A DNA stretch of 64,000 nt, from the IMG/VR virus record IMGVR_UViG_3300042519_004024, positions 124,001 to 188,000 of that record. One strand, written 5' to 3'. The notes under the pieces were generated by a model. It had not been told where the DNA came from. It ran no database searches and worked only from the letters and a program-made list of their open reading frames with translations. Source of the stretch: a virus. This document shows, one piece after another, positions 27,392 through 62,339 of the stretch. Made by a program: the position numbers and the translations under genes. Numbering within the stretch: the stretch's first letter is position 1; every line of letters begins with the position of its first letter.

Positions 27392-29251
27392 TTAAACGAT
27401 TTCACATGCGCCACCCGCACACGCAGCTTCTCCTCGTAGATCGGTGTTATCTTGTAACTCAATTACTTTTGTAAGATTAACATCTGATAATGTTTTAACC
27501 AATCTTTCAAAATCTTCTTTTGTACAATCTTCAAAAGGGGCTTGTGTGTAAGTTCCTCCGTTGTAAGGTAGTACTGACAAACCGTTATAGAAATCTCTAT
27601 TGTTCCACATCCAATCACCAACTAAACTCCACTCGTCTTCTTTAATTGATACTGTAGCAGATACGTTGTGTGTGTTTTGTCCGTTTCTATGTCCAGGTTT
27701 AATCCATTCTTGAGATACTTTCTTAACTCTTTCCAACATTTGGAACACTGATTCATGTCTTACGATTGAACCTTCAGGTGCTCTTTGTGGGATAGTAATT
27801 ACCGCAGTATCGTGAGGACGGAAAAACTCATCTTCAATCAACTCAGGATGATTAATCGCCAAGTATGAATAGATTGATTCGTTTTTACCAACACGGATTC
27901 TTCTTAGGTAATAATCATTATGCCATGCGTGGATTCCTGATGATGTACCCAATACCAATGATGAGGTACCTGATGGTTTAACTGTTGTTGTTCTTGCGGA
28001 TTTGTTGATTCCAATAAGACCAGCAACTCTTTCGTTTTCTTCTTTAACCATCTTAGCCGCTTTTTTCATATCATAACCCAACACAACACCTGAACCAATT
28101 CCTGTCATACCTACACCGATAAGTGCATCTTTTTCAGTTGTTCTTTTCCAAATATCTCTTAAATAATGGAAGTCTGTGTATCCTGCCTGTAGTGTACCAA
28201 TGAACGATGCCGCCCTAACTCTTGCATCAAAGTCTTCTTGTGATTCAATATCTGAAGCGTTAACCTCACATAAGTTACAGAATTGGAATGGACGAAGTGC
28301 GATTTCACAACAAGGGTTTGTTCCCCAATCTTTATCGTTAGATAAGTAGATTCCAGGTTCACCTGCGCCTGACAACTCAATACGTTTCCACAAATCCATA
28401 AAAAATTCTTTTGTGATTTTGTGACGAAGAAGAACCGCCGAGTTATTTGCTCTACCTCTTTGTGCGTTTTGTTCCCACCAACTTCCTGATTTACAAGAAA
28501 TCATTTCTTCATCATCTGCCGAAAATAATGAGATAAGAGCCGCACGTCTGATACCACCCGCTAGTACTGCATCCGCAATATGACATACGATATCGTGAGT
28601 TTCAATTGGTGTTAGTTTTTCTCCATCTTTTTTGTTATCCAATACTTTTGTAATGTTATGGATACAATCTTTTAATGGTTGAGGGCCCGGAGCCTTTCCC
28701 CCTGATGTTACAAGCATCGCACCTTTTTGTCTAATATCTGAAAAGTCGAATATAGGTGTTGATGACTTATAACCTAAATATGATTCCATTAATACTTTAA
28801 TGGCATCTGCCCACCCTTCAATAGAATCACCAATAAGGTATCTTCTTGTTCTTTCAGGATTTGGTTTTTTAATATCTGGTAGTTTTTCAACGTGGTGTTT
28901 TTGAACTGAGTAACCAACTCCTGTTCCACCTAAAAGTAAAAACATTGTTTCAGAAAACGAGTCAACGTGATCGATTGGCATATATGCACAATTATAAACT
29001 CTGTTTGGTGAGATTTCAATTGGCTTTCCACCAAATTGTAAAGATCTCATAGATGGTAAAACTTTCTTGTCGTACACCATTTTATATACCTCTTCAATCT
29101 CATCTTTGATGTGTGGGTACTTTCTTTGGTGCATCTCTTTGTTACGTGTTACCAACTCTTCCCAAGTCTCTCTCCGATTCTTTTCGGGTTGAAACTTAGC
29201 GTATTTCATAAAGACAGTAATGTCACTTAATATTTTTTGCGAAATATCCAT
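27392..29251 (-). CDS. nrdJ: Adenosylcobalamin-dependent (class II) ribonucleotide reductase
   Basis: A 619-residue single-chain reductase that makes deoxyribonucleotides for phage DNA synthesis. Residues visible: C88 in VYNCAYMP and C314/E316 in TNPCCEIAL (the second redox Cys of the pair may lie at 314/88; C314 corresponds to the radical-bearing Cys with E316 as its catalytic partner). GGTGVGYSVQ (108-117) and the barrel segment KPSGTSSLVLG are also present. The C-terminus CAGGACEIV has the Cys pair C611/C616 that re-reduces the active site, as in the monomeric Lactobacillus leichmannii enzyme (CEGGAC). No separate NrdB-type subunit is present, consistent with class II. Use of B12 needs cofactor from the host; no cobalamin riboswitch is visible upstream. 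Confidence 0.92.
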   Translation of the reverse strand: MDISQKILSDITVFMKYAKFQPEKNRRETWEELVTRNKEMHQRKYPHIKDEIEEVYKMVYDKKVLPSMRSLQFGGKPIEISPNRVYNCAYMPIDHVDSFSETMFLLLGGTGVGYSVQKHHVEKLPDIKKPNPERTRRYLIGDSIEGWADAIKVLMESYLGYKSSTPIFDFSDIRQKGAMLVTSGGKAPGPQPLKDCIHNITKVLDNKKDGEKLTPIETHDIVCHIADAVLAGGIRRAALISLFSADDEEMISCKSGSWWEQNAQRGRANNSAVLLRHKITKEFFMDLWKRIELSGAGEPGIYLSNDKDWGTNPCCEIALRPFQFCNLCEVNASDIESQEDFDARVRAASFIGTLQAGYTDFHYLRDIWKRTTEKDALIGVGMTGIGSGVVLGYDMKKAAKMVKEENERVAGLIGINKSARTTTVKPSGTSSLVLGTSSGIHAWHNDYYLRRIRVGKNESIYSYLAINHPELIEDEFFRPHDTAVITIPQRAPEGSIVRHESVFQMLERVKKVSQEWIKPGHRNGQNTHNVSATVSIKEDEWSLVGDWMWNNRDFYNGLSVLPYNGGTYTQAPFEDCTKEDFERLVKTLSDVNLTKVIELQDNTDLRGEAACAGGACEIV

Positions 29252-34218: not shown

Positions 34219-34875
34219 TCAAAACGTTTGTTCGTCGTTTTCGTTGTAATTATTGAATGTTTTTTTAACTTCGTTTGGTGAAAAATTCTCAACTTCATCT
34301 GATGTTAGAATATATTCATTTTTACCTGTTTCTTCCATCTCATCTTTTTTGTCATCAAAAAAATCAGTTAGTTTTTGATTGTATGGATAAGAATCTAATG
34401 ATCTTAACATTAATTTTTCTTCAGGTGTTTTTTCTCTATATCTATCAAATTTAGTTTCTAATGAATTTATCTTATCCATTATACTATCCATGTGTTGTAG
34501 TTTTTTTTCTAAATCATCTAATTTAGTAAAAATCCCATCCATGAATTCGTCTTGTTTTGCTTTAATGTCCTGTTGTGCGGTAACTAAATCTGTGATGTCA
34601 ACTTCCTCTGTTTCAGCATCACCTTCTTTGTCGTCAGTCACTTCTTCAACATCAGGATCATTTTCAACATCTATTGGTTCAGGTATTGGTGCTCCCGCTG
34701 CAGGTGCATCTCCTCCTGCCGCAGGTGGCGGTGGTACATCTCCCCCCGCTGCCGGTGGTGGCGGTGGAGCATCTCCTCCTGCCGGTGGTGGCGGTGGAGC
34801 GTCTTGTTCATTTATATAAGAATTAATATTATTAAATCTTCTTAATTCCTCTAAAATTTTATTATCTATACTCAT
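34219..34875 (-). CDS. Pro/Ala/Gly-repeat coiled-coil protein of unknown function
   Basis: A 218-residue protein. The N-terminus MSIDNKILEELRRFNNINSY plus INE forms a probable amphipathic helix. Residues about 25-62 are repeats of the type APPPPPAGGD. Then an acidic stretch (VENDPDVEEVTDDKEGDAETEEVD), a coiled coil at about 95-140 (FTKLDDLEKKLQHMDSIMDK, INSLETKFDRY), and an acidic C-terminus. I recognise no family. It has the look of a scaffold, internal or chaperone-like protein. The N-terminal leader ending in I-N-E recalls capsid-targeting peptides (see findings). It follows the 75-residue gene by 13 bp and ends at its own terminator. Confidence 0.55.
   Translation of the reverse strand: MSIDNKILEELRRFNNINSYINEQDAPPPPPAGGDAPPPPPAAGGDVPPPPAAGGDAPAAGAPIPEPIDVENDPDVEEVTDDKEGDAETEEVDITDLVTAQQDIKAKQDEFMDGIFTKLDDLEKKLQHMDSIMDKINSLETKFDRYREKTPEEKLMLRSLDSYPYNQKLTDFFDDKKDEMEETGKNEYILTSDEVENFSPNEVKKTFNNYNENDEQTF
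34689..34803 (-). repeat. GC-rich tandem repeats coding APPPPPAGGD units
   Basis: Short imperfect tandem repeats inside the 218-residue gene (plus-strand GGTGGCGGTGGAGC and TCTCCTCCTGCC blocks), markedly richer in G and C than the surrounding AT-rich sequence. They encode the Pro/Ala/Gly/Asp linker. Confidence 0.75.
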
Positions 34876-53383: not shown

Positions 53384-56300
53384 TTATACATCATCAAAAG
53401 ATGCTCCTGTTGGTGTAATAACGAATTCGATATCAATGTATTCTAATGCTCTTGTAGGTTTTAAGAAAATTTTACCTGTTAAAGTATTTGAATCCAAATC
53501 TTCAGGAGTGTTTGATACTGTCACACGGAAATCTATCAAACCTCTATCTCTTCTGATTCCATCTAATATTGGGTTAACTGAATCCAAGAAGTCTTGTCTT
53601 ACTTTGTTATCGTTTTGTTCGAATAGTAATCTAATAGCCACTGCTGAAATCAACTTACGTGCTTGTAGTAACAATCTTCTAACGTTAATTCTATCAAGTG
53701 CAGACTCTCTAATTTGTAAAGTTTTGTTACCCCAAATCACTGTACCAACATCAGAGAAAGTTGCGATTGGGTTAATTCTACCTTTATAAAGTGTGTCTCT
53801 ATCGTCTTGTGTCAATTTACGTCTTGCTCTAATTGCGTTTACCAAACCTCTTGTGTAACCTGCAGATGCGAACCAAGGGAATGCGATATTGTCTGTCAAA
53901 GCTAAGTTCTTAACAACTTCAGAAGTTGGTGGAATGTATATTTGTGTATTGTTAACCGAATCTCTTGTTAAAATCCAAGGGTAATAAGTGGCGGTATAGT
54001 TAGAGTCTATTCCTGTTGCTTCTAAGTTATCTACCGTCTGTTGAGGGAAAATTAACCCTTCCTCAATATCGTTATATGTTGGTAAAAACAAATCAAAGTC
54101 AGGTGTAGTACAGATATAAATAGAGTCCGCTCTATCAGTTTCAATCATATCAATAGCGTCCTCAACAAGATTTGAGTTATTAACATAATCAATACCAGGT
54201 GTTGCAAATACATTTATGTTTGTTGCTTCAGGGTTAGCAAAAGTACTTTGTCCCCATTTGTATGCGTAAAAGTCAGTATTTGCCCAATTTTCTTGGTTTG
54301 GTCCTGAAATCGCTTTAAATGCTCCCCAACCCGTTGCGGTAGGATAAGTTATACTTGCTTCTGCACCATATTTAAATCCTGTTTGTCCTAATGCGAATGA
54401 ATCTGAATTTGTTCTATATTCTCTATATATGTCCCATCCATCAAAACCACCATAAGCCATTACCGTAAATTTACGAGTATTAAGTCTATAATATGGACTT
54501 GAACTATCTGTAGGTTCAGAGTTAAATGACCCGGCACCTACTTCAAACGCCGACTGTCCTGATGTTACATAACCATTTGCGATTGTTACAACAGTTGCTC
54601 CGCTATCCATGTGGAAACCTTTTGTTAAATAACCCCAAGCCATACCTGTGGTATCAGTACCTAAATTTGCAGGTAACTGCTTTCCTTTGTATTCAAAGAA
54701 ATCGTAATCAATTCCTGATATATTAGAAATACCTAAGTATGCCTTTCTTGGATTTTCACCACTTGAAATAACAGGGTTGTCACCTCCGTTAGATGAACCA
54801 AAAGGTGGGTTATACACAACGTCACCAGGTTTGAAATATTTAGTTTTATATACTAAGAATGGTGGTGTTGCATTTGCGTATTCTCTTGAGATAAATCCTT
54901 CAAAACCACAAGGTAGTGCGTCTATCGGGGCTTCATCACTCATTTCTAACATTACGTATTTAGACTTAACTTGGTATTCTCCGTTTGATGTTCCTATCTT
55001 ATTTGCTACGTAATTATTTTGACTTGGGTCTAATGAACAATTAGTGAAACTTTCAATAACTCTTGGGTTTTGATCGGTATCATAAAAATCTCTAATAAAT
55101 ACGTCAAACGTACTACTATTAAATGATATATTACCTATAGACATTTTTACAAGTCTATTAGCTGCGTTACCGTCAGAAATTAAAACAAACTTAAATAATT
55201 TATAAACTTTATTACCTCTAAGTTCTGAAACTAAATACGGTGTTTCAGGTGTTTGATATTGTTCTAAATAGAAACCTATTGAGTCGGTATCTAATGATCT
55301 CGCTCCTGGTAATTCGATAATATCACAGTCTAATCCTCTAATTCTACCTAATCTATATCCACTTGTTAACAAACTAGTATACGTCTCCTCGACAAATAAA
55401 GGAACCTCATTTCTGTCTTTACCAAAATTACTTCTACCAAATACTTTAGAAATAAAGTTCTTATCAGTAGATAACATTGATGTTTGGAATTCAAAATTGT
55501 CCCCGTCATAGGTTACCCCTGAAATAAGGAATGGTGAGTATGGGTTTTTAGTAACCGCAGAATAAGAACCTGTACAAATCATTTGTACATCAGTTGTACC
55601 CGTTACTTCATAATTCGGTCCTGCTTGTGTTGCACTGTAGTTAGATATACCTCTTGATCTTAAAGTTGCAACAACTAAATCATCATAATCTAAATAAGGC
55701 GTACCTGAATAGTTTGTGTTGTAAAAAACACAAGAACCTGAGAAATTACCTCCTGATCCCGATAGTGTGTTTACCGCGGCACCAAAACCTTGTCCGTAAT
55801 AACTACTTACATCGTTTACTTGTGAGTAATTAAACAATGCGTAATACCAAGCATCGTTAGTAGATGCTGATAAGTTAGCCAAAGATAGATTAACATTATT
55901 AACCCCAAAGTTTTCAGTGTATGCAGTAATAGTACCCGTACCATTAAGTGTTGTACCCGTTACTAAGTTAAATGTTCCTGCACTAACAGTACCCCAAAAG
56001 ACTGCCGATGAACCTGAAGAAGGTGAGCCAACGGCAAATAAATTTACTTGGTTTGATATATAAGTTCTTAAATCTTGATCAATAGTTGATGTACCACCAT
56101 TAAATTCAGTATATGTATTATAAAAATTATTATTTACATTAATAATACCAGGGACTGACATATTATATGCAATATTTGAACTTGTTCCTGTTGTTCCTGT
56201 AAATGTTAATACTGTGGATGATACTCCTGTTGCTGCGATTGTTGCCGGATTAACGTTACCTATTGTCGTTATTGACCAAGAAGGTCCTGCGTCATATCCT

Positions 56301-56599
56301 GATAAACCAAGAACTCTTGTAACAAATAATTGATTCGATTGTTGCAAATATGCCTTTGTAATATACGCTAATTCATATTTAGGTATTTGTGTATTAACAA
56401 ATTTTTCAGGACTAGTTCCTCCAAAATATACTTGGAACTCGTCAAAATTAGTTATGAATATTGGTTCAAACGCCGGACCCTGAAGAGTTTCTCCAGCCAA
56501 ACCTAAAGTTGTTACACCTACACTTTGTGCAACAAAAGTTAAATCTCTTTCTGACGTATAAACCCCAGGTGAAACGAAAACTTTGTTTGATGATGCCAT
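53384..56599 (-). CDS. 18: Tail sheath protein, gp18-like
   Basis: A 1071-residue sheath protein, about 400 residues longer than T4 gp18 (659). Family marks are the N-terminal VFVSPGVYTSERDLTFVAQS and the C-terminal domain with LTDNIAFPWFASAGYTRGLV, then KLTQDDRDTLYKGRINPIAT and FSDVGTVIWGNKTLQ, LDRINVRRLLLQARKLI. The extra length is in the middle: residues about 130-430 are Gly/Ser/Thr/Asn-rich beta sequence, likely added surface domains. It has an octamer 38 bp upstream and a hairpin downstream, consistent with strong expression. It contracts to drive the tube through the host envelope. Confidence 0.93.
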   Translation of the reverse strand: MASSNKVFVSPGVYTSERDLTFVAQSVGVTTLGLAGETLQGPAFEPIFITNFDEFQVYFGGTSPEKFVNTQIPKYELAYITKAYLQQSNQLFVTRVLGLSGYDAGPSWSITTIGNVNPATIAATGVSSTVLTFTGTTGTSSNIAYNMSVPGIINVNNNFYNTYTEFNGGTSTIDQDLRTYISNQVNLFAVGSPSSGSSAVFWGTVSAGTFNLVTGTTLNGTGTITAYTENFGVNNVNLSLANLSASTNDAWYYALFNYSQVNDVSSYYGQGFGAAVNTLSGSGGNFSGSCVFYNTNYSGTPYLDYDDLVVATLRSRGISNYSATQAGPNYEVTGTTDVQMICTGSYSAVTKNPYSPFLISGVTYDGDNFEFQTSMLSTDKNFISKVFGRSNFGKDRNEVPLFVEETYTSLLTSGYRLGRIRGLDCDIIELPGARSLDTDSIGFYLEQYQTPETPYLVSELRGNKVYKLFKFVLISDGNAANRLVKMSIGNISFNSSTFDVFIRDFYDTDQNPRVIESFTNCSLDPSQNNYVANKIGTSNGEYQVKSKYVMLEMSDEAPIDALPCGFEGFISREYANATPPFLVYKTKYFKPGDVVYNPPFGSSNGGDNPVISSGENPRKAYLGISNISGIDYDFFEYKGKQLPANLGTDTTGMAWGYLTKGFHMDSGATVVTIANGYVTSGQSAFEVGAGSFNSEPTDSSSPYYRLNTRKFTVMAYGGFDGWDIYREYRTNSDSFALGQTGFKYGAEASITYPTATGWGAFKAISGPNQENWANTDFYAYKWGQSTFANPEATNINVFATPGIDYVNNSNLVEDAIDMIETDRADSIYICTTPDFDLFLPTYNDIEEGLIFPQQTVDNLEATGIDSNYTATYYPWILTRDSVNNTQIYIPPTSEVVKNLALTDNIAFPWFASAGYTRGLVNAIRARRKLTQDDRDTLYKGRINPIATFSDVGTVIWGNKTLQIRESALDRINVRRLLLQARKLISAVAIRLLFEQNDNKVRQDFLDSVNPILDGIRRDRGLIDFRVTVSNTPEDLDSNTLTGKIFLKPTRALEYIDIEFVITPTGASFDDV

Positions 56600-58124: not shown

Positions 58125-58640
58125 TTATATTCCTTTAAATTCGTTATCATTAACAGGAGCTCCTATTATTGAACGATAAAATGGTTTGTAACCACCATAA
58201 GTATGTTTATTATCTGATAGTACACGACCATCATTTACTACTGAATAATATCTAACCCTCGTTTCCGTTTCGTAATACCCTATGTAATCACCATAGTTAA
58301 TATCAACACCTAAATTATCCAATTCTTTTTGGTAAACACCAACCTTAACATTACCAGGCTCTGTTTGTGATAATTTTGATGATCCGTAATCCGCATTTGT
58401 AGGAGCCTCTACCTGAACATATCCTTTAAATTCTACCGGAGGTAAGAATTGTATTGCATTCTCTAACGCTTCCCCATAAACATCGTCATTATTTGTTCGT
58501 TGTCTATCAACTCTGTATAAAACTAAAGTAAAATTCATATCTCCACCAAGCCATTCCTCACCCATAGAAATGTCTAAGTCAAAATCTTCTTCAGAGAAGA
58601 ATTTGTTTAATCTAGTAATTGGAACTTTATTTTGTGTCAT
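58125..58640 (-). CDS. 14: Neck protein, gp14-like
   Basis: A 171-residue protein (T4 gp14 is 256). The N-terminus is MTQNKVPITRLNKFFSEEDF. The region DDVYGEALENAIQFLPPVEF, then INYGDYIGYYETETRVRYYSVV and YGGYKPFYRSIIGAP matches the layout of gp14-type neck proteins (a structured strand, a GD-x-IGY turn, and an FYR/FYQ strand). It is the first gene of a two-gene unit with the gp15-like gene and starts only 4 bp after a TATTTATA octamer. Divergent from the helicase gene. Expected to join head and tail. Similarity is weak, so moderate confidence. Confidence 0.5.
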   Translation of the reverse strand: MTQNKVPITRLNKFFSEEDFDLDISMGEEWLGGDMNFTLVLYRVDRQRTNNDDVYGEALENAIQFLPPVEFKGYVQVEAPTNADYGSSKLSQTEPGNVKVGVYQKELDNLGVDINYGDYIGYYETETRVRYYSVVNDGRVLSDNKHTYGGYKPFYRSIIGAPVNDNEFKGI

Positions 58641-58644
58641 ATAA

Positions 58645-58652
58645 TATAAATA
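58645..58652 (-). promoter_or_regulatory. TATTTATA octamer upstream of the gp14-like gene
   Basis: Exact octamer, 4 bases before the ATG at 58640. Used as a -10-type element it would give an almost leaderless mRNA. Confidence 0.5.
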
Positions 58653-58686
58653 CTTTGATTGATTTTTTATTAATATTTACTATTTT

Positions 58687-58694
58687 TATTTATA
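58687..58694 (+). promoter_or_regulatory. TATTTATA octamer upstream of the SNF2-type helicase
   Basis: Exact octamer on the plus strand, 5 bases before the ATG at 58700. Divergent partner of the octamer at 58645-58652. Confidence 0.55.
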
Positions 58695-58699
58695 ATATA

Positions 58700-60463
58700 A
58701 TGGAAGAATTAATTTCAAAAACTCCCGAAACAAGGGCTCTTCAACTATTAGACGAATATGAAGGGTCAAATAACTATATCCTGTCGTTAAAACACAAAAA
58801 ACAAAATAGTAAATCATTTACTCCCACAAGATCACAAGCAGAATACATAATCAACTTTCATGGAAGAACCCCAAAAGTGGCAAAAAAATGGGTAAAGCTG
58901 GATGCTTACTTTGGAAAAAAGATGATGGAAGATAAAATGTACACAAAAGAACCATCAGAAATTTACGTTGAGAAGTTGTTGGTTGAAAAAGATAAATCAT
59001 ATCATATTTGGGGTAAAATATTTTCAGGTGATACTATACACGATTTCTGGGTTCCTAAATCTGCCCTTATTAAAGATAACGAAGTAAAAAATGTCGTTAT
59101 TGAATACTCAAAGTATGATCATAGATCACCTATGGAACACCAAAAAGAGGCTATCGAAAAACTTGTAAGAAACAAAAAGTTTATTTTGGCTGATGATATG
59201 GGACTTGGAAAAACTACATCAACAATTATTTCTGCATTAGAGACGGGAGCAAAAAAAATATTAATTGTTTGTCCAGCATCTTTAAAAATAAATTGGCAAC
59301 GTGAAATTGAAAATTATTCAGACAGAACCATTTATATTGCAGAAGGTAAAAAATTTTCAAGTGAACACGATTTTGTAATAATTAATTATGATATTTTAAA
59401 AAACTTTCACGACCCAAAAAAGAAAGACGAATCCATCATTTTAAATTCTAAATTTGATTTAGTTATTATGGATGAAGCCCATATGATATCAAACCCACAA
59501 GCACAAAGAACAAAAATAGTTAATGACTTATGTGATAAGGTTGAAAGGGTTTGGTTACTAACAGGAACTCCGATGACATCAAGACCAATGAATTATTATA
59601 ATCTTTTAAGTTTAGTTGAAAGCCCCGTTGCGGCAAATTGGATGGCTTACGCAAGAAGGTACTGTAACGGATTTCAATTTAGTGTAGGTAAAAGAAAAGT
59701 ATGGAACGTAACAGGGGCATCTAACTTAGATGAGTTGAGAGAACGAACACAATCTCACATTTTAAGAAGATTAAAAGAAGATGTTTTAGATTTACCTGAT
59801 AAAATTATCACACCTGTTTATTTGAGACTAAAGTCTAAGGACTACGAAGAACTTATGGGTGAGTATTTTAATTGGTATGATAATAACTCAGAAGAGTCTT
59901 CATCTTTAACTATTCAGTTTGGTAAATTAATGAAAGTTAGAAAAGTAATTGCTGAAGAAAAAGTAAAAAATACAATTGAATTGGCTGAAAATATTATTGA
60001 ACAAGGAAAAAAAGTTATCATATTTACAAATTTTACTGACACCTTAAGAACCATTTATGAACATTTTGGAAAACAGGCGGTATATTTAGACGGTAGTTGT
60101 TCAAAACCTCATAGACAAAAAGCAGTGGACGATTTTCAAGAAAACGATAAAATAAAAGTTTTTGTTGGTAATTTAAAGGCTGCGGGTGTGGGTATTACTT
60201 TAACATCTGCAGAAGCAGTAATCATGAATGATTTATCATTTGTTCCTGCAGAACATGCACAAGCAGAGGATCGATCACACAGAATCGGACAGAAAAAATC
60301 AACGTCAGTTTATTATCCATTATTTGAAAACACAATAGAAGGTGCAATTTATGATATTTTAAATAGAAAGAAAAAAATCATATCAACAGTAATGGGAGAT
60401 GATATGATGGACGACGCATCTTCAATTGAAGAAATGTTAAATATGATTTCTAATAAGAGGTGA
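58700..60463 (+). CDS. SNF2-family DNA helicase (UvsW-like role)
   Basis: The frame is open from 58619, but ATG at 58700 is chosen because the TATTTATA octamer sits at 58687-58694. The product is 587 residues. Residues about 140-290 contain QxxxI, Walker A DDMGLGKTT (165-173), DEAH (258-261) and TGTPMTSRP. The second lobe carries VIIFTNF, HRQKAVDDFQ, GITLTSAEAV and motif VI AEDRSHRIGQ. These are SNF2-type ATPase motifs, closest to SMARCAL1-like helicases. The N-terminal 135 residues are a separate domain. In T4 the branch-migrating UvsW helicase fills this role, in recombination and origin shut-off. Assignment to that role is inference. Confidence 0.88.
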   Translation: MEELISKTPETRALQLLDEYEGSNNYILSLKHKKQNSKSFTPTRSQAEYIINFHGRTPKVAKKWVKLDAYFGKKMMEDKMYTKEPSEIYVEKLLVEKDKSYHIWGKIFSGDTIHDFWVPKSALIKDNEVKNVVIEYSKYDHRSPMEHQKEAIEKLVRNKKFILADDMGLGKTTSTIISALETGAKKILIVCPASLKINWQREIENYSDRTIYIAEGKKFSSEHDFVIINYDILKNFHDPKKKDESIILNSKFDLVIMDEAHMISNPQAQRTKIVNDLCDKVERVWLLTGTPMTSRPMNYYNLLSLVESPVAANWMAYARRYCNGFQFSVGKRKVWNVTGASNLDELRERTQSHILRRLKEDVLDLPDKIITPVYLRLKSKDYEELMGEYFNWYDNNSEESSSLTIQFGKLMKVRKVIAEEKVKNTIELAENIIEQGKKVIIFTNFTDTLRTIYEHFGKQAVYLDGSCSKPHRQKAVDDFQENDKIKVFVGNLKAAGVGITLTSAEAVIMNDLSFVPAEHAQAEDRSHRIGQKKSTSVYYPLFENTIEGAIYDILNRKKKIISTVMGDDMMDDASSIEEMLNMISNKR

Positions 60464-60471
60464 TATTTATA
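60464..60471 (+). promoter_or_regulatory. TATTTATA octamer upstream of superoxide dismutase
   Basis: Exact octamer on the plus strand, immediately after the helicase stop and 3 bases before the ATG at 60475; part of why the GTG at 60460 was not chosen as start. Confidence 0.5.
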
Positions 60472-60474
60472 GTT

Positions 60475-61194
60475 ATGATATTTAAAAACTTTAATCAAAA
60501 AATAACCCTTTTAGAAACAAAATTAAAAACACATTCGTTTTCAAATGAATTGTTAATTACTGAAATTAAAAAAATTTCAATAGAAAAATTACCTTATGAG
60601 TTTGATGATTTAGATATGTTTATTGACGGTGAAACTATGAGAACTCACTATAATAAACATTACAAAGGTTACGTTGAAAAATTAAATTCTGAATTAGAAA
60701 AAATAAAAGGTAAAGATTTAGATTTAGAAGAGATTGTAAGTAGTATCACAAAATTTAACACGAAAGTTAGAAATAACGGTGGTGGAGCATTTAACCACGC
60801 ACTATTTTGGAAAATGTTAACACCTAAAAAAACAAAATTAGAAAATCCTTTATTATATAAAATAGAATCAACATTTGGTTCATTTGAAAAATTTAAACAA
60901 AAATTTGAAGAGGAAGCAAAATCAAGATTCGGTTCTGGTTGGGTTTGGTTAGTAATTACTAAAGCAAATAGATTAAAAATTATAACCACCGCAAATCAAG
61001 ATAATCCATTAATGTTAAAAGGTAGTAATAAAGCGTACCCACTATTAGGATTGGATTTATGGGAACATGCATATTATTTAAAATATAAAAACGAAAGAGA
61101 TAGATACATCCATAATTTTTGGAAAGTAGTTAATTGGGATTTTGTTTCCGATTTATATTCAACACAAGTAAAATTAAATAAAGTTAATCAGTAA
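60475..61194 (+). CDS. sod: Superoxide dismutase, Fe/Mn family
   Basis: The frame begins with GTG at 60460, but ATG at 60475 is used. The product is 239 residues: an N-terminal extension of about 37 residues, then the full Fe/Mn SOD fold. All four metal ligands are present: H58 (RTHYNKHYKGYV), H108 (GGGAFNHALFWKML), D194 and H198 (GLDLWEHAYYLKY), with second-sphere Tyr66. Gly103/104 before the NHALFW and Gln175 in TTANQDNPLM match the Mn-type pattern. SOD converts superoxide to oxygen and hydrogen peroxide. There is no signal peptide, so it is cytoplasmic or packaged. It lies between helicase and neck genes with a promoter octamer 3 bp before its ATG. Confidence 0.92.
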   Translation: MIFKNFNQKITLLETKLKTHSFSNELLITEIKKISIEKLPYEFDDLDMFIDGETMRTHYNKHYKGYVEKLNSELEKIKGKDLDLEEIVSSITKFNTKVRNNGGGAFNHALFWKMLTPKKTKLENPLLYKIESTFGSFEKFKQKFEEEAKSRFGSGWVWLVITKANRLKIITTANQDNPLMLKGSNKAYPLLGLDLWEHAYYLKYKNERDRYIHNFWKVVNWDFVSDLYSTQVKLNKVNQ

Positions 61195-61196
61195 GA

Positions 61197-61204
61197 TATT
61201 TATA
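61197..61204 (+). promoter_or_regulatory. TATTTATA octamer upstream of the gp13-like gene
   Basis: Exact octamer on the plus strand, 13 bases before the ATG at 61218, in the 23-bp gap after the dismutase gene. Confidence 0.5.
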
Positions 61205-61217
61205 TAAAAAATATCAT

Positions 61218-62339
61218 ATGTCAACTACTGTTATTATCACAGAACCAGAAAGAAGTAAAATGTACAAAAGAATTAGAAATCTTTTGGGCGCACCTTTACG
61301 TGGTGTAGAATTGGAGGATGAAATGATGGATTCATTATTAGAACTCTCAATAGAAGACTACGAACAAGCGGTTCAAGATTGGTTAATTGAGTCACAATGG
61401 GCTTCAGTTGCCGGATTAAATGTTGAAGAACAATCTATTGCTAGAGCACTCACAACAAGAGATATGAATTGGGAGACTCAGTATACTTACGCTTACTCAA
61501 AAATTGTTGGGTTACAAGCTGGTGGTGATTGGGTTTTAAAAAAAGATTATATCGACTTAGTACCTAATCAACAAATCTACGAAATACCAAAATGTAGAGA
61601 AATGAATGAACTACTTTGGTTTGCGAGATCAGAATTAGATGCTGCGTATTTCGATCCTTTTATGGGTGGATTTGGTGGATTTGGTGGTATTGGTTTAGGT
61701 GGTGGTGCTGGATTTTCACAAATGGGTACTACAGGTAACTATGCTATTACACCGGCGTTTGACATTCTTTTAAGAATGGCTGACATACAATTAAAAAGAA
61801 GAGTGATAACGGGTGATTTAACATATAGAGTTACTGCACTTCCTGATGGTAAAAAGGCGTTACACCTATACAATGTACCTGGCGGTAAGTTTGATTTTGG
61901 TAATTTAAAAAGAAATGAATCAAGAGTTTGGTATTGGTATTACGATACTTGTGATAGGGAGGATTGTTTAGCAAATAATCCAGATGTGATAAGACTACCA
62001 TCTGATGTTACAGTTGAAAGACTTAGATGGGATAAGTTGAACTATCCTGCACAAACATGGGTAAGAAGATGGTTCACGGCATACTGTAAAGAAACATTAG
62101 CGAGAGTTAGAGGTAAATTTAGCGGTAATTTAAAAACCCCCGATTCTGAATTAACTTTAGAATATCAATCTTTACAAACTGAAGCTAAAGACGAAAAAAC
62201 GCAACTTCAAGAAGAACTTAAAACAAGACTTGAAAGATTAAGACCTGAAAAACTTATGGAAGCGAAAGCGATGCAGGCTGAGAATTTAAATAAATTATTA
62301 AAATTCAGAGCGTTTAATAGTCCTTATAATGTAATTTAA
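61218..62339 (+). CDS. 13: Neck protein, gp13-like
   Basis: A 373-residue protein (T4 gp13 is 309). The N-terminal helix MYKRIRNLLGAPLRGVELED, the LELSIEDYEQAVQDWLIESQW segment (quoted from SIEDYEQAVQDW), and later FGNLKRNESRVWYWYYD and PAQTWVRRWFTAYCKETLARVRG fit head-tail connector proteins with many helices. A glycine-rich loop GGFGGFGGIGLGGGAG (about residues 150-166) interrupts it. The C-terminus is a long charged coiled coil (KTQLQEELKTRLERLRPEK). An octamer lies 13 bp upstream. Assignment to gp13 is by layout and context; the connector role is more certain than the name. Confidence 0.5.
   Translation: MSTTVIITEPERSKMYKRIRNLLGAPLRGVELEDEMMDSLLELSIEDYEQAVQDWLIESQWASVAGLNVEEQSIARALTTRDMNWETQYTYAYSKIVGLQAGGDWVLKKDYIDLVPNQQIYEIPKCREMNELLWFARSELDAAYFDPFMGGFGGFGGIGLGGGAGFSQMGTTGNYAITPAFDILLRMADIQLKRRVITGDLTYRVTALPDGKKALHLYNVPGGKFDFGNLKRNESRVWYWYYDTCDREDCLANNPDVIRLPSDVTVERLRWDKLNYPAQTWVRRWFTAYCKETLARVRGKFSGNLKTPDSELTLEYQSLQTEAKDEKTQLQEELKTRLERLRPEKLMEAKAMQAENLNKLLKFRAFNSPYNVI

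Follow-up and report, generated by a model that had tools for sequence, protein, structure and literature searches.

The window analysed is a 64,000-nucleotide stretch of viral DNA, corresponding to positions 124001-188000 of the 213,924-base record G000. On its forward strand it carries a gene for an Fe/Mn superoxide dismutase (SOD; 60475-61194), which encodes 239 residues between an ATG at 60475 and a stop codon at 61192-61194; an in-frame GTG at 60460 is a less likely start. The ORF scores over the Pfam cut-off for both SOD domains (Sod_Fe_N 2.4e-22, Sod_Fe_C 8.9e-41) and is the only gene in the window to match Sod_Fe_C. Its top PDB match is S. aureus SodA (5n56, 1.4e-57), while PHROGs holds no SOD family matching the window protein. 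The catalytic domain spans residues 36-230 (60580-61164), as delimited by the Pfam and PDB matches and by the predicted structure of a relative (L025), which matches Sphingobacterium MnSOD (6gsc) with an E-value of 3.9e-22. Four metal ligands are present, H58 (60646-60648), H108 (60796-60798), D194 (61054-61056) and H198 (61066-61068), together with the second-sphere residues H62, Y66, G104 and Q175; in E. coli MnSOD numbering we take the ligands to be H26, H81, D167 and H171, and the second-sphere residues to be H30, Y34, G77 and Q146, respectively. All eight positions are invariant in the 146 distinct phage SODs sampled (146/146). An initial annotation of this DNA had described a SOD with a complete metal site, and the ORF, the Pfam and PDB matches and the residues above bear this out; its ‘Mn-type’ label is a reasonable reading, though sequence alone cannot settle metal preference. 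The phage protein is an intact and presumably active Fe/Mn SOD, sharing with the bacterial enzymes 6gsc and 5n56 both domains, the fold, the ligands and the second-sphere residues, and differing from them in its 35-residue (I/L)-x-E leader, its place in a separate, long-stemmed clade and the additional domains fused to SOD in relatives.

Two constant neighbours flank the gene on the same strand. Upstream lies an SNF2/UvsW-like helicase (58619-60463, likely ATG at 58697; SNF2-rel_dom 4.2e-31, phrog_62 6e-114), and downstream a neck or head-tail adaptor protein (61218-62339), assigned from a phrog_211 match (6e-12) and from synteny; tail sheath and tail tube genes are also near. The 1071-residue sheath protein is encoded on the reverse strand (53384-56599), and its best sheath matches cover the C-terminal part only. 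Also on the reverse strand, a ribonucleotide reductase (27392-29251; phrog_367, 2e-132) sits amid structural and replication genes, and a 218-residue protein (34219-34875) has PPPPPAGGD repeats with an acidic region after them.

Viral contigs fetched with SOD as the query keep the gene order of sheath, two structural-type genes, helicase, SOD, neck, a small ORF and a DNA-polymerase-like ORF, the last named by the look of its sequence. A second set of contigs was fetched with the neck protein, to avoid query bias, and here 78 of the 79 related contigs have a SOD adjoining the neck gene, which makes SOD close to a core gene in this lineage. One relative shows a clean absence of SOD, the helicase running straight into the neck gene (L276:2168-5113). 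Near-invariant adjacency to the neck gene would fit a SOD whose first role is in the structure or assembly of the neck or head, with catalysis secondary. We regard this as improbable, since pure structure would have no need of eight active-site residues kept in every relative sampled, and the contig without SOD retains its neck gene.

A protein search and a SOD tree, both suggested by the initial annotation, were run. Among bacteria the closest matches come almost entirely from Bacteroidota, at no more than 51% identity. In a tree of 119 SOD cores (maximum likelihood by a quick method, with SH-aLRT support only), all 44 phage SODs fall on one side of a single branch with a support of 99 and a stem length of 0.74, and, with the root placed at the midpoint only, this clade lies nearest the Bacteroidota SODs. 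On this placement, we read the gene as one that the phage lineage derived from a cellular source. Compared with four close relatives, the SOD core has a dN/dS of 0.06-0.12 (Nei-Gojobori), and by this measure is under purifying selection. Because the closest non-phage relatives are bacterial, host contamination or a recent transfer from the host might be suspected, and a contaminating host fragment had been named in the initial annotation; identity to bacteria of at most 51%, the single well-supported clade and the same place in 78 of 79 contigs refute it, and we attach practically no credence to it. The location between helicase and neck genes given by the same annotation is confirmed, and its view that this is a settled part of the genome is supported by synteny, the single clade and the low dN/dS.

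The window’s SOD subfamily occurs in about 595 viral-contig stretches, but no record in the phage collection searched exceeds 47% identity to the window SOD. The assertion that such genes are rarely noted in tailed phages is only partly right, as divergent SODs are annotated in Callisto, MIJ3, Vibrio 2.275.O and PA5oct. These are likewise phage-encoded Fe/Mn SODs of large-genome phages, but with 27-30% identity to the window SOD, with Clp/heat-shock genes or topoisomerase as neighbours, and with ORFs of 182-189 residues that are too short for a leader of the window type plus the domain. The PA5oct SOD is flagged ESI-MS/MS in its GenBank record. Lambdoid prophages of E. coli O157:H7 carry the Cu,Zn SOD gene sodC (PMC2569942), so that a SOD is found on phage DNA in both cases, sodC encoding an unrelated enzyme. 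The named relatives by capsid protein, though distant, are Microcystis phage Mel-JY01, Flavobacterium phage immuto, in which no SOD was found, and Rhodothermus phage RM378; the host is probably a member of the Bacteroidota.

Comparison with bacterial SOD N-termini and a profile search mark residues 1-35 (60475-60579) as a phage-specific leader, a putative pro- or capsid-targeting region. Cytosolic bacterial SODs begin at the domain and exported ones bear signal or Tat-type leaders. The phage SOD leader has about 30 residues and is polar, helical-looking, partly heptad-like and variable in sequence, with an end, directly before the SOD domain, of the form (I/L)-x-E-(I/M)-K-K-(I/V)-x-(I/V). In the window protein the (I/L)-x-E site is I28-T29-E30 (60556-60564), and motif conservation points to a prohead-protease cut after E30; leader residues E30 and K32 are kept in 59 of 59 cases. 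For a shuffling test the SOD sets were combined and reduced to 37 divergent leaders, with 17 residues of each examined. (I/L)-x-E is present in 36 of the 37 as against 18.2 ± 2.9 after shuffling of each leader, with none of 20,000 shuffles as high, a count in which the leaders, being related, do not represent independent events. Most conservation of so short a motif falls at homologous positions, and sites that are shifted yet kept are more telling than aligned ones: in the diverged linkers of L286, L288, L289, L300, L315 and L316 the motif has moved to -15/-16 and is retained. A few relatives depart from the strict motif, with MxE in L073 and VxE in L303, and most members have Ile or Met as the P1' residue. 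Three relatives apparently have no leader; their start was probably mis-chosen, since in L272 and L278, the two whose reading frames were inspected, (L)xE lies upstream of the first ATG.

Two other accounts of the leader were rejected. It has no hydrophobic core, unlike exported Bacteroidota SODs, and is not a signal peptide; nor is it a copy of the genome’s common short tags, as the leader profile gave no other ORF a meaningful score and detected no homologue elsewhere in the genomes examined.

In T4, the gp21 prohead protease cuts its substrates after the Glu of L/I-X-E, N-terminal propeptides of 10-19 residues target internal proteins into the core, and a Glu-Ala bond has been described for gp22 (PMC9026906). 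Matches to Peptidase_S77, the family of the T4 prohead protease, were obtained in 7 of the 18 records searched, which comprise 17 relatives, mostly fragments, and the window’s own record; in one examined relative such a match (1.2e-24) occurs together with Portal_T4, Gp23 and a T4-type terminase. The window’s own record gives no S77 protease match and ends before the head module: its right end (213721-213924) is an ORF whose homologue in L099 lies near a T4-type head module, so the absence of capsid genes and protease follows from truncation of the record. We infer the phage’s own prohead protease from its relatives. In all five head modules examined, the capsid protein of these relatives begins with a pro-region whose last residues are SHLINE, with a presumed cut before the Ala that follows, and LINE is also the junction tetrapeptide in several SODs.

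We propose, with somewhat better than even confidence, that the SOD is a head-internal cargo enzyme of a T4-like, probably Bacteroidota-infecting lineage, matured by the prohead protease. The leader would carry the SOD pro-protein into the prohead core, where a T4-type prohead protease would cut after the Glu of (I/L)-x-E and free the mature SOD inside the capsid, a cleavage that we model on the T4 internal proteins and Alt. Mature SOD might then shield the packaged genome from superoxide, or be ejected with the DNA and act early in infection. What we suggest is a likeness of mechanism to T4-type head-internal proteins, rather than membership of that class. As in IPI-III and Alt, a pro-region ends in (I/L)-x-E, the relatives have the S77 protease and Gp23, and Alt is itself an enzyme passenger; unlike in T4, the passenger is a SOD, the leader is longer and not T4-like, P1' is mostly Ile or Met, and packaging is a proposal from sequence.

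Many relatives carry a further domain fused to SOD. Among 108 distinct SODs fetched by two SOD queries, 30 have an N-terminal HEWxHE domain of ~125 residues and 55 a C-terminal domain of ~270 residues. The N-terminal fusion is seen in L005, L007, L010-L020, L025 and others, the C-terminal one in L071, L073, L075-L078, L081 and L188-L267. The N-terminal domain, which we call zincin-like from its HEWxHE, has no Pfam match over the cut-off, DUF6055 being sub-threshold only, and no homologue elsewhere in the genomes examined. The AlphaFold model of a zincin-SOD relative has two confident domains with residues 145-156 between them, the sole stretch where pLDDT is < 50, and it is here that the site I153-S154-E155 lies. 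As this places the site in a low-pLDDT stretch between confident domains, conservation of the junction motif looks like that of a linear motif, as a protease site would be. The leader helix of zincin-fused members is internal, not N-terminal. In the C-terminal domain E160, D187, D193, Q206 and K208 are invariant, and the E...D...QxK pattern resembles that of PD-(D/E)xK nucleases; the domain has no Pfam match, and its model (mean pLDDT 90) retrieves Hjc resolvases and I-Ssp6803I in Foldseek with a weak E-value (7e-3, prob 0.98). The border between SOD and this domain bears a second tag-like stretch, e.g. KLAESTKMKQVLSE followed by GKSE, and a second site after SOD, LxES...[IL]SE followed by G, is found by pattern in 50 of the 55 C-terminally fused members. 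In such relatives the pro-protein would also bear a zincin-like or nuclease-like domain, to be split from SOD at a similar cut site.

Three nucleotides before the SOD ATG is the element TATTTATA (60464-60471), promoter-like or an initiation signal, and a further copy (61197-61204, same strand) precedes the neck gene. Of 53 distinct regions upstream of SOD, 52 have the sequence TATTTAT no more than 40 nt from the start, as do 51 of the 52 regions upstream of the neck gene. Across the genome, 29 of the 74 copies of TATTTATA fall in the 40 nt before starts, zones that make up about 1-4% of either strand, and 11 do so in reverse orientation. It is also found upstream of several virion genes besides SOD and the neck gene; in SOD genes it lies only 3-4 nt before the ATG. 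The element, noted as a promoter octamer in the initial annotation and now seen to be conserved upstream of SOD, could act as a late promoter or as a signal for initiation; were it a promoter, its distance of 3 nt would leave the SOD transcript almost without a leader.

The main rival to packaging is that SOD is an auxiliary metabolic gene, whose product would remain in the cytoplasm of the host and keep superoxide down during replication, with the leader as an uncut tether, dimerisation or regulatory region. We hold this to be a real but lesser possibility. It is in keeping with invariant catalytic residues, a dN/dS of 0.06-0.12, ordinary Bacteroidota SODs as nearest cellular relatives and a helical, partly heptad-like leader, but sits poorly with the fixed position between helicase and neck genes, with an upstream element common to virion genes, and with an (I/L)-x-E that is conserved within a linker predicted to be disordered and recurs at the C-terminal junction. 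We favour packaging as the single explanation that best accounts for the leader, the motif at the junctions, the fused domains, the upstream element shared with virion genes and the genomic setting together. Counted against it are the Ile or Met at P1', a leader unlike the short tags, the internal leader of zincin fusions, the shortness of the motif, the few departures from it and a record that ends before the head genes. The earlier remark that the enzyme may be packaged thus becomes, in view of the leader together with the (I/L)-x-E at the junctions and the fused domains, the best-supported option, in which cleavage, packaging, delivery and biological role are what we infer.

Short N-terminal tags with (I/L)-x-E are widespread in the genome, with no fewer than 43 ORFs that fit patterns such as MKRIIRLTESDLTRIVKRxISE, MNLQEHIRKVLREE, MKNLIKKILKEE and MKIIITESQ. 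Within residues 1-25, (I/L)-x-E occurs at 26.7 per 1000 positions in the genome compared with 8.7 in bacterial ORFs, while rates in protein interiors are near-equal (11.8 and 12.6, respectively). Of 171 left-arm accessory genes, 88 have an N-terminal (I/L)-x-E, compared with 4 of 32 structural genes of the tail or virion (p 3e-5 by Fisher's test, on our own division into these groups). Since the motif is enriched at N-termini and is found often in accessory genes but seldom in tail genes, the tags suggest a broad head-cargo or candidate capsid-targeting system of which SOD would be one item. The wider proposal, that the lineage packs SOD, often with a joined zincin-like or nuclease-like enzyme, as a protease-cut pro-protein and as one of >40 tagged cargo proteins per genome, we put at slightly under even. 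Searches of open-licence papers returned nothing on such a tag system or on SOD in T4-like virions, and no packaged antioxidant enzyme shown in a tailed phage. If true, an antioxidant enzyme packaged in the particle would serve phages in protecting or delivering the genome, and an N-terminal or inter-domain (I/L)-x-E would predict which of the many uncharacterised genes in uncultured T4-like phages encode proteins packaged in the head. Among the tagged ORFs, some have matches to a P-loop kinase-like family or to a cell-wall hydrolase. The tag families RLTESDL, NLQEHI..REE, IITESQ and NLIKKILKEE are found in positions 1-120000 of the record (L082-L087), for example at L082:9348-15792 and L085:13023-15033.
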